A stretch of DNA of 64,000 nt from Comamonas sp. (GTDB lineage: Bacteria > Pseudomonadota > Gammaproteobacteria > Burkholderiales > Burkholderiaceae_C). Both the position numbers and the translations under genes were made by a program. The notes below the pieces were generated by a model. That model was not told the origin of the DNA. It worked only from the letters and a program-made list of their open reading frames with translations, and searched no databases. Each line of letters starts with the position of its first letter. Position 1 is the stretch's first letter. Of this stretch, positions 54,141-56,821 are shown piece by piece. The DNA lies in contig JAQVCA010000007.1 in the NCBI GenBank assembly GCA_028690035.1, positions 133,126 through 197,125 on the forward strand. Direction: 5' to 3'.

Positions 54141-54256
54141 GGCGCGGGCATACCGGCCATTGGGACTGGTACCGGCTGGTACTGGCGCGATTTTTGCTTA
54201 TTTCTTGCTGGTGGCCCGTATGGCGCGGGCACTGCCAGAGCAATAAGGAGTAGGCC

Positions 54257-56821
54257 ATGGTGGCAAACCAGTGCAGCGAACCTGAAATCCCCATCGATAC
54301 GTTGGTCGTTTTTATGCGCGGGGTGCTGCGCTGTGAAAGCGCGCTGCGCGAGCTCAACCTGATGTGGCGTCTGATCGAGTCGTCGGCCAAGATGAATTGC
54401 CCGCAGGAGGCGCGCGCCCTGCTGCCCATGTTGCAGACCACGCGCGAGGGGCTGCAGCGCCTGGAGGTCGATCTGGTGCAGTCGCTGGTGGCGCAGTCGC
54501 TGCGCGAAGTGCTCACCGATCTGCGCACCAGTGCCCACCATGTGATCGACATCGTGGTGCGCAGCCTCTACGAGCGCACCGCAGACGTGGGTTTTTTGGC
54601 TACCGATGCTCAGTTGTGCGCCTATGTGGCAGGGCTCAGTGACGGTCAGGGCGTGCAGCAGCGCCTGTGGGAATACCGCCAAAAGTACAGCGTTTATGAC
54701 GAAATTTTGCTCATCGACCACCAAGGCGCCGTGCTGGCCCAGGTCGATGAACACTCCCCGGTCGAGGGCAGCGACGATCCCTTGATCGCCGCCACGCTGC
54801 AGCGCAAGGCGTACCTGGAGACATTTCGCGCCACCGACCTGCGCCCAGGCAAGGCCCAGGCGCTGCTCTACACCCACCGCATGCTGCATCCGCACACGCA
54901 CCAGAGCGTGGGCGTGCTGGCCCTGGGCTTTGACTTGGAAGGCGAGATGCACGGCCTGTTTGAGTCCTGGTGCGAACAACCCGCGCGCAGCATTGCTGTG
55001 CTGCTGGATGCCGATCGGCGGGTGCTGGCCAGCAGCGATGAACACTGGATTGGGAAGGGCGAGCGCGTGCCGGTGAATCTGACCGGCGCAGCCGTGCCGT
55101 GTGTGCACGCAGGACGCACCTATTTGGTGCAAACCGTGGCCGCCAGGCCCTACCAGGGCTACCCGGGGCCTGCTGGCTGGATGGGGCAGGTGATGATTCC
55201 CATCGACCAAGCCTTCGGCACCAAGGCGCGCCGGGCCATCGATGCGCTGGAGCCTGCAGTGGCGCAAGGCCTGCTGGCCCACGCGCACCGCTTTTGTCCA
55301 CCCCTGCATGCCGTGGTCGCCGCGACCGACACCATCCGCCGCGTGGTCTGGAATGGTCAGGTGATGACGGCCAGTCAGGGCACCACCACGCCCCAACTCA
55401 AGGCGGTGCTGGAGCAAATTGGCGAAACCGGTGCCCACACCCATGGGACGTTTGCCCACGCCATCCGCGATCTGTACGACACCGTACTCAGCGCCAGCCT
55501 GCGTGAGAGCGAGCAGCTCACCCAGCTCCTGGTGGATGTGCTCGATCGCAACCTGTACGAACGCGCCAACGATTGCCGCTGGTGGGCACTGACGCCCCAG
55601 CTGTGCGACCTGCTGGCCCGCGAAGCCCAGGGCCAGGACTGCACTGCCGAGCGCGAACAGGCCTGTGCGCTGTTGGAGCACCTCAACCGGCTCTATACGG
55701 TGTACGCACGCATCGTCGTGTACGACCGCCAAGGCACCATCGTGGCTGCCAGCCGCAGCACGTTGGCCCACGGCCTATCGGTGCTGGGCATGGGCATCGA
55801 GCCCGACACCTTGGATGCGGTGCTGCACCTGAGCGACACCCAGTCCTACCACGTGAGTCCATGGCGCAGCGGCGCCTACGGCTGCCCAGCGGATGAGCCC
55901 GGCTACGTGTACCACGCAGCCATACGTTCACCCCAGGACGCCACGCACATCGTCGGTGGCATTGGTCTGGTGTTTCACACCGTGGGCGAGTTACAGGGCA
56001 TGTTGGCCGATGGTTTGGTGGATCAGCCCGGCGTGCAAGCTGTGTACGCCCAGTGCGATGGCACCGTACTGGCCAGTACCCACCCTGAGGAGCACCCCGT
56101 GGGCACGCGTCTGGCACTGGAGCCGGGCTGGCTGCAGGTGGCCCCGGGCCAGCGCCGGGCGTGCGTGACGATATACCGTGGCCACTACTGCATCGTGGGG
56201 TGTGCGGCGGCGCACGGCTACCGCGAGTTTCGGCGTACTCCTGGCGCTGGCGATGGAGTACTGGCGCTGTCGTTCAAAGCGCTGGGGGCGGTGCAGCCCG
56301 ATGCCCAGGCGGCGGTGCAGCGGCGCGATACCGTGGTGCAGCCGATGGCACCACAGGGTGGTGGTGGGCGCGAGATGGCGACGTTCTTTGTGGGTTCGTC
56401 GCTGTTTGCCCTGGACGTGGCGCATGTCCTGGAGGCGCAACCGGCCAGTGCCGTGGCCCCTGTGTCTGCCGGGCGTCTGCCGCACTGCATCGGCACCTTG
56501 GCGCGACGCACCCAGGGCCAGGTGAGCGGGTATGTCTGGGTGTTCGATCTGGCGCATCTGCTCACCGGACAAGTAGCGCAGCGCAGTGCCAACAATCAGG
56601 TGGTGGTGGTGCAGTGCGCCGGGCGGCATCTGGGGCTGCTGGTCAGCGAGCTGCAGGGCGTGCATGTGTTTGCACTGGAGAGCATCGTGCCCATGCCGGG
56701 CACAGCTGGCGCTTTGGGGCAGCTGGTGCAGTCGCTGGTACGGGCCAATGGCGGGGCGCTGTTGGTGCCGTGTTTGCACCCGCAGGCCTTGCTCCATGTG
56801 CTGCAAAGCCCCACCGCCTGA
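54257..56821 (+). CDS. Soluble double-dCache sensor with C-terminal CheW domain
   Basis: An 854-residue protein after a strong AAGGAG. Residues 103-320 and 431-660 are related sensory modules: each opens with LYER(T/A)(A/N)D followed by a W/F-L/A-x-T segment, then two PAS-like cores (YDEILLIDHQGAVLAQ and ARSIAVLLDADRRVLASSDE; YARIVVYDRQGTIVAAS and GVQAVYAQCDGTVLAST). This is the dCache plan, twice. Residues 705-850 are a CheW-like domain (SLFALDVAHVLEAQPA, VVVVQCAGRHLGLLVSELQG). No signal peptide, membrane helix or MCP signalling helix is seen, so it appears cytoplasmic. It may feed a ligand signal directly into a CheA array. Confidence 0.82.
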   Translation: MVANQCSEPEIPIDTLVVFMRGVLRCESALRELNLMWRLIESSAKMNCPQEARALLPMLQTTREGLQRLEVDLVQSLVAQSLREVLTDLRTSAHHVIDIVVRSLYERTADVGFLATDAQLCAYVAGLSDGQGVQQRLWEYRQKYSVYDEILLIDHQGAVLAQVDEHSPVEGSDDPLIAATLQRKAYLETFRATDLRPGKAQALLYTHRMLHPHTHQSVGVLALGFDLEGEMHGLFESWCEQPARSIAVLLDADRRVLASSDEHWIGKGERVPVNLTGAAVPCVHAGRTYLVQTVAARPYQGYPGPAGWMGQVMIPIDQAFGTKARRAIDALEPAVAQGLLAHAHRFCPPLHAVVAATDTIRRVVWNGQVMTASQGTTTPQLKAVLEQIGETGAHTHGTFAHAIRDLYDTVLSASLRESEQLTQLLVDVLDRNLYERANDCRWWALTPQLCDLLAREAQGQDCTAEREQACALLEHLNRLYTVYARIVVYDRQGTIVAASRSTLAHGLSVLGMGIEPDTLDAVLHLSDTQSYHVSPWRSGAYGCPADEPGYVYHAAIRSPQDATHIVGGIGLVFHTVGELQGMLADGLVDQPGVQAVYAQCDGTVLASTHPEEHPVGTRLALEPGWLQVAPGQRRACVTIYRGHYCIVGCAAAHGYREFRRTPGAGDGVLALSFKALGAVQPDAQAAVQRRDTVVQPMAPQGGGGREMATFFVGSSLFALDVAHVLEAQPASAVAPVSAGRLPHCIGTLARRTQGQVSGYVWVFDLAHLLTGQVAQRSANNQVVVVQCAGRHLGLLVSELQGVHVFALESIVPMPGTAGALGQLVQSLVRANGGALLVPCLHPQALLHVLQSPTA

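Follow-up and report, generated by a model that had tools for sequence, protein, structure and literature searches.

CheW is mostly regarded as a passive connector, and CheV consists of a CheW domain and a receiver. CheW-fused sensors are already known, namely CheWS and CheW-CZB. CheWS of Treponema denticola is presented in PMC10653840 as the first CheW-fused chemotaxis sensor to have been characterised, and it reportedly interacts with CheA and binds S-adenosylmethionine. In Pfam 35 the same article finds 30 CheW architectures that are undescribed, and it names CZB and PAS among the fused sensors. Cache domains are described as principally extracellular, with Diacid_rec and YkuI_C as exceptions (PMC4822843). 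Here we analyse a gene on a 64,000-nucleotide stretch of a Comamonas sp. assembly (GCA_028690035.1, contig JAQVCA010000007.1, positions 133,126 to 197,125; hereafter the window). The open reading frame (ORF) at 54257-56821 on the plus strand encodes an 854-aa protein, P0001, in which two dCache-like modules precede a CheW domain. P0001 is probably cytosolic, and probably feeds intracellular conditions straight into the machinery that steers swimming. Loci, genomes and contigs are denoted below by L, G and C numbers, respectively. We did not find a dCache-CheW architecture described in the open literature searched, nor is it mentioned in the available parts of PMC12654446, PMC10613068, PMC6600141 and PMC7184735; it may figure among the undescribed architectures of PMC10653840.

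P0001 resembles CheWS in that a CheW domain is fused to a cytoplasmic sensor domain in both. However, the sensor of CheWS is CheR-like and lies C-terminal to CheW (PMC10653840), whereas P0001 carries two dCache modules N-terminal to it, which are related to soluble chemoreceptors; CheA contact and ligand binding, reported for CheWS, are predictions for P0001. CheV and CheW-CZB, the latter named in PMC10653840, are likewise adaptors that combine CheW with a further domain for regulation or sensing, but a Pfam scan of P0001 shows neither a receiver nor CZB. With membrane-bound dCache_1 chemoreceptors it shares, by way of its relatives, the dCache_1 sensor family, yet it is without a transmembrane-grade (TM-grade) stretch, and by Pfam without a HAMP domain or the signalling domain of methyl-accepting chemotaxis proteins (MCPs), and has CheW instead. 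New here are a kinship with soluble mini-receptors, a single old duplication behind the twin modules, and a related clade that is without CheW and has a tip-like linker.

The gene has AAGGAG at 54245-54250, ahead of its ATG. A presumed helical N-terminal stretch that is conserved in the subfamily (T1, residues 14-100, 54296..54556) stands ahead of module 1 (residues 101-320, 54557..55216), which starts near RSLYERTADVGFLATD. An inter-module linker (T2, residues 345-428, 55289..55540), with the motif WNG inside it (residues 365-367, 55349-55357), is followed by module 2 (residues 429-665, 55541..56251), which starts near RNLYERANDCRWWAL. A poorly conserved linker (residues 666-703, 56252..56365) leads to the CheW domain (residues 704-850, 56366..56806), all of these lying on the plus strand. 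The original prediction, made from the sequence of the window, had proposed an internal duplication with an LYER..D segment at the start of each half and a C-terminal CheW domain, and all of this holds. The segments are LYERTAD at 104-110 and LYERAND at 433-439, and a profile-profile comparison of residues 60-330 with residues 395-665 (57 rows) relates the halves at E 3.8e-24 with a probability of 99.6% over 222 columns, each homologous module spanning about 230 aa. Pfam places CheW (PF01584) at residues 707-847, scoring 45.6 bits (cut-off 23.5). Moreover, the CheW family profile matches solved CheW structures, 2qdl at E 7.5e-12 and both 3ja6 and 1k0s near 1e-8, with a total of six sequences at E 0.01. 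When 18 fused CheW domains were placed in one tree with the own genome's four CheWs and its four P5 domains, the tree did not resolve where the fused domain came from. An NCBIfam scan of P0001 and phmmer searches of the PDB with P0001 and with its relative L184 returned no match.

The same prediction held that the protein is soluble and has no MCP signalling helix. P0001 peaks at a 19-residue Kyte-Doolittle mean of 1.59, whereas three MCPs encoded in its genome reach 2.51-2.95, so that no membrane-helix-grade stretch is present by hydropathy, a dedicated transmembrane or signal-peptide predictor not having been run. The customary threshold is 1.6, and 11 of 53 dual-module frames have peaks above it, with a maximum of 1.97. 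The absence of a signalling helix is borne out at the Pfam level, since P0001 has no match to MCPsignal (PF00015); the scan also gave none to HAMP, receiver, CZB or CheR.

The dCache part of the prediction is less direct than the CheW part. In P0001 both sCache_3_2 and dCache_1 (PF02743) are sub-threshold, dCache_1 scoring 11.9 bits, below the curated cut-off of 45. Whole-protein dCache_1 scores exceed this cut-off in five of the nine dual-module proteins scanned (L116, 63.0; L183, 61.1; L184, 64.2; L185, 48.6; L190, 54.7), with the best stretch in module 1, and fall below it in P0001, L039, L067 and L186. Cache_WalK is above its own cut-off in L185 and L190. The module profile found a single PDB structure, 3by9, at a marginal E of 0.016. 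The modules of P0001 are probably dCache by kinship, an assignment made through these relatives.

We then assessed how widely the gene occurs. From 589 confirmed stretches in genome contigs the best 80 relatives were kept, ranging from 71% identity over residues 1-853 (L039, an uncultured Comamonas metagenome-assembled genome (MAG)) down to 37% (L116, a Geobacter MAG). Record titles among these 80 include Comamonas, Acidovorax, Simplicispira, Curvibacter, Hydrogenophaga, Delftia, Duganella, Massilia and Thiobacillus. One duplicate (L041) and seven cut or frame-broken loci (L049, L052, L084, L087, L094, L111 and L118) were set aside, and 16 further loci were omitted to limit size, leaving a subfamily alignment of 56 relatives and P0001. 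Mean identity of the 56 relatives to P0001 is highest in module 1 (0.57), T1 (0.56) and T2 (0.55), lower in module 2 (0.46) and CheW (0.42), and lowest in the linker after module 2 (0.29). Between P0001 and L039 the nonsynonymous rate (dN) is 0.193 and the synonymous rate (dS) 0.77 over the whole gene, with 0.178 and 0.87, respectively, in the CheW region, and the nonsynonymous proportion (pN) is below the synonymous one (pS) in all six regions scored. From this one pairwise comparison, every region, CheW included, looks to be under purifying selection. As at least 80 relatives exist, the best of them 71% identical over nearly the whole length, and pN is below pS throughout, we regard this as a real gene. 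Plasmid records gave only three partial matches, which cover 10-31% of the query at E 4e-7 to 8e-7; two of them carry an MCP annotation. The Delftia members L089, L091 and L097 are 936-972 aa as read, longer than most, and two Burkholderiales-like copies under other titles (L080, Chitinophaga pinensis, a MAG; L114, Pantoea sp.) may be mislabelled, contaminated or transferred.

The family of the window was sampled with 120 genomes from 120 genera, one per genus and the own genome included, of which 15 are less than 90% complete or more than 5% contaminated. Matches were found in 28 of them. In 24 these run along the protein length (best E 1.6e-80 or better), whereas in the other four the match is confined to the CheW part or its vicinity (E 1.8e-6 to 3.2e-4), and these were not counted as members. 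The twin-module gene with CheW is therefore present in 24 of 120 sampled genera, a fifth, and it also occurs in other families of the class. Two genomes (G014 and G056) hold two copies each, which belong to different subfamilies (one near 50%, the other near 35% identity to P0001), and the relative at G003:C1:903966-906479 consists of four overlapping pieces in separate frames, reflecting a broken gene or assembly errors. Canonical CheA, defined as PF02895 at E 1e-15 or better (a threshold set post hoc), is found in 75 of the 120 genomes. It accompanies the gene in 23 of 24 genomes, as opposed to 52 of 96 without the gene (one-sided Fisher p 5e-5, not corrected for phylogeny).

The nearest kin outside the twin-module family are a group of soluble mini-receptors. 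A module 2 profile matched 33 of 398 genomes of the phylum, 6 with proteins of the full-length type and 27 with frames 319-460 aa long. Twenty-four of the latter were read (L145-L168; 302-441 aa with the chosen start). Their layout is an N-terminal MCP-tip-like stretch (LALNALIESSRAG..GFAVVA.EV), within which L149 as read starts, and then RNL[YF]ERxxDVRWWATD. Like P0001 they have the homologous module and no TM-grade stretch, their hydropathy peaks reaching 1.59 at most; unlike P0001 they have a recognisable MCPsignal tip, a single module and no CheW. MCPsignal is above its cut-off in all five scanned, and dCache_1 scores 23-30 bits in the same five, under its cut-off (E 6.1e-5 to 4.3e-7). The mini-receptor profile matches half 1 of P0001 at E 5.4e-26 and half 2 at E 1.2e-31. 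With the tip N-terminal and dCache C-terminal, these proteins, from 27 of the 398 genomes, have the order of an inverted, truncated chemoreceptor. In a tree of 62 modules (without L211, L212 and L226, missed by the pattern), first modules, second modules and mini-receptor modules each fall on one side of a branch (100/99, 100/100 and 94/97, respectively). Because the three sets separate in this way, one old duplication accounts, on this tree, for the twin-module proteins.

The dual-module proteins themselves are of two forms. Nine of 321 genomes of the class matched, and in three of these the dual-module protein ends where the CheW linker begins (L183, L184 and L185, the last cut at a contig start). 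Among 151 genomes of the order of one such CheW-less member, 39 matched and both forms were present, with at least one (G955) matching in the CheW part only. Of 53 dual rows in total (30 from the 151-genome search), 52 were readable by pattern, L039 being missed. Fourteen of the 52, or 13 distinct genes as L184 and L203 are the same, are without CheW (L184:6381-8402, L183, L185, L203-L205, L210, L219, L222, L224, L225, L227, L229 and L230). T1, module 1, T2 and module 2 follow in the same order as in P0001 and can be aligned end to end, but the frames are of 667-775 aa (L184 has 674 aa from ATG to stop) and end at the start of the CheW linker. Their T2 also differs, having LNGxIxxA[RK] where P0001 has WNG and resembling the MCP tip of the mini-receptors. 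The former motif is found in 14/14 CheW-less rows and WNG in 38/38 CheW-bearing rows; all 57 rows of the subfamily alignment have WNG as well. A 47-row tree built without the linker (thirteen rows thinned beforehand; L039 and L113 missed by the pattern) places the nine CheW-less rows in one clade (100/97), and one change suffices. The perfect match between linker type and CheW therefore counts as one evolutionary event and not as many, and, as the tree is unrooted, a gain of CheW looks the same as a loss. The soluble kin with an MCP tip and the CheW-less clade go beyond the original prediction.

T2 of P0001 occupies the position that the MCP tip has in the mini-receptors. Several tests of tip homology were made before one succeeded: T2 of the CheW-less proteins (13 rows) matches the mini-receptor tip with a score of 23.5 (E 1.9e-4), which 0/100 column shuffles reach, and the top eight of 102 whole-protein windows overlap the T2 region. 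Against the canonical MCP tips of the genome that encodes P0001 the match is weak (14.7, reached by 6/100 shuffles), with the four best windows again in the T2 region. Five outgroup rows, three without and two with CheW, score 21.3 against the mini-receptor tip (0/100 shuffles). The all-row T2 profile (11.9, 16/100 shuffles) is not above chance, a direct comparison of Burkholderiales T1 and T2 with this tip is not significant, and T1 never rises above shuffles. T2 is therefore probably a tip remnant in the CheW-less clade, judged from these profile scores. Within the CheW-bearing subfamily of the window its likeness to the tip is not above chance, and for P0001 we infer a remnant from position only. 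Separately, an alignment of T2 with distant relatives scored E 1.1e-5 against the tip but contained a shared DRNL end; once this was trimmed, nothing exceeded the shuffles.

With this in mind, a receptor may have turned into an adaptor: a soluble receptor that contacted CheA/CheW by an MCP tip of its own would have been duplicated, its inter-module tip would have decayed and CheW been gained, perhaps in that order, with the related clade having kept or regained the tip. We offer this history tentatively, as a possibility rather than an expectation. If true, one sensor could plug into the array either by a tip or by CheW, in the latter case from the position of the coupling protein. The series of mini-receptor, twin without CheW and twin with CheW makes it testable whether CheW can stand in for a receptor tip as the port of input.

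As for present function, we favour, with a probability of roughly 0.6, a soluble cytoplasmic sensor-adaptor that would dock in CheA arrays via its CheW domain and modulate the kinase. The tandem dCache modules would either bind a small molecule or signal an internal state. The CheW domain would enter the ring of CheA P5 and CheW, as is reported for CheWS (PMC10653840), placing the two modules beside the baseplate. The array concerned would most likely be the flagellar one (contig C10 in the own genome). The ligand or internal state would then alter the ring and hence CheA activity. Kinship with mini-chemoreceptors, in which an MCP tip is joined to dCache, and a single duplication would account for the sensor half, the CheW domain providing the array contact here. 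The original prediction had likewise proposed a soluble sensor that plugs into CheA arrays, or else one that competes with CheW; its anatomy stands, and the co-occurrence with canonical CheA and the selection on CheW are consistent with the array part. The sensor-adaptor reading is also favoured by the Pfam and structure matches of CheW, the dCache_1 scores of relatives, the tip-plus-dCache layout of the mini-receptors, the chemotaxis genes of the own genome and the excess of MCP and GGDEF/EAL genes next to the gene, all detailed in this text. If the reading is true, it would be the coupling protein, and not a receptor, that lets a cytosolic dCache sensor into arrays.

A number of observations weigh against this sensor-adaptor reading. 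The CheW domain is conserved less than module 1 (mean identity 0.42 vs 0.57), and a related clade does without it altogether. While the glycine of G-x-x-N-L-R-G is kept in 57/57 rows, the canonical NLRG arginine is not conserved, Arg occurring five columns after the glycine in 12/57; we take this column to be R62 of E. coli CheW. P0001 has Arg at this place (residue 751), but without the NL..G context. In the own genome the C10 CheW has GVVNLRG, and a pattern search finds LRG in three of the four CheWs and VRG in the fourth. Moreover, 52 of the 75 genomes with canonical CheA are without the gene, which is therefore optional, and G052 carries the gene but has no PF02895 match. This genome is of 7.2 Mb and 99% complete, with two other CheW-domain matches in frames of 365 and 1067 aa. 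No FliA-like promoter was detected above chance with a simple consensus over 73 upstream stretches (mean 9.42 vs 9.47 shuffled). Nor is there a conserved che neighbourhood or operon across 72 loci, the commonest neighbour cluster occurring at 19 of them at varying distance.

The arginine in particular could be read otherwise. P0001 might be a negative regulator that binds CheA P5 or receptor tips as CheW does, cannot complete the ring and so competes with CheW, dissolving or uncoupling arrays, perhaps under ligand control. A recognisable CheW fold with the NLRG arginine in only 12/57 rows is what such a protein might show, and no receptor tip was recognised in P0001. However, a weak ring member and a competitor look alike in the present data, and CheWS, in which CheW is fused too, is described as belonging to the ring (PMC10653840); we consider a negative regulator rather unlikely. 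It is improbable, too, that the main partner is something other than CheA, such as the enzymes of cyclic di-GMP, with CheW serving as a general protein contact or a relic. The retention of both modules in the CheW-less clade would agree with such a partner, as would a GGDEF/EAL gene adjoining ours at 9 of 72 loci. By motif patterns, GGDEF/EAL or MCP genes make up 13 of 92 adjacent but 12 of 300 distal ORFs (p 0.0013), an excess that carries no correction for relatedness. On the other side, dN in CheW is well below dS, the gene and canonical CheA co-occur strongly, and the three CheW-less genomes found first all have CheA (3, 6 and 4 matches) together with 10 to 17 CheW matches.

Finally, the modules might be a platform for dimerisation or scaffolding that spaces or orients CheW in the array, sensing no ligand. 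PAS and Cache domains can act as dimerisation domains (PMC8694187), and the subfamily alignment shows long invariant runs in the RNLYERxxD segments and in T1 and T2. Yet the same module is the sole candidate input domain of the mini-receptors. Where their function is known, dCache domains bind ligands in most cases, and we regard a pure scaffold as very improbable.

Direct neighbours of the gene include a GGDEF/EAL gene at L046, L059, L062, L064, L066, L078, L088, L096 and L110, and an MCP gene at four of the 72 loci (L039, L074, L081 and L083), all assigned by motif patterns; 7 of these 13 lie on the same strand within 100 bases. The copy in the window has no GGDEF/EAL or MCP gene among the neighbouring ORFs looked at. 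Judged by sequence features, an RsgA-like GTPase lies upstream, and a hydrolase-like ORF lies downstream on the opposite strand.

Lastly, we searched the own genome for chemotaxis genes with Pfam, which gave nine CheW-domain matches, P0001 included, and 28 MCP matches. Four systems were named from ORF order, size and sequence features and not from Pfam. Presumably, C10 holds a cheY-cheA-cheW cluster beside fliM/fliN-like, flagellar-looking genes, C12 a second system that includes a small STAS-like protein, C11 a hybrid-CheA system and C9 a system of Pil-Chp type with a 2130-aa ChpA-like protein. The original prediction had seen no other chemotaxis gene in the window, and this stands for CheW and MCP, neither of which has a further match there, CheR, CheB and CheY not having been searched. 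An MCP gene is located at G000:C22:197706-198170, about 600 bases past the right end of the window and 7.8 kb downstream of the gene.

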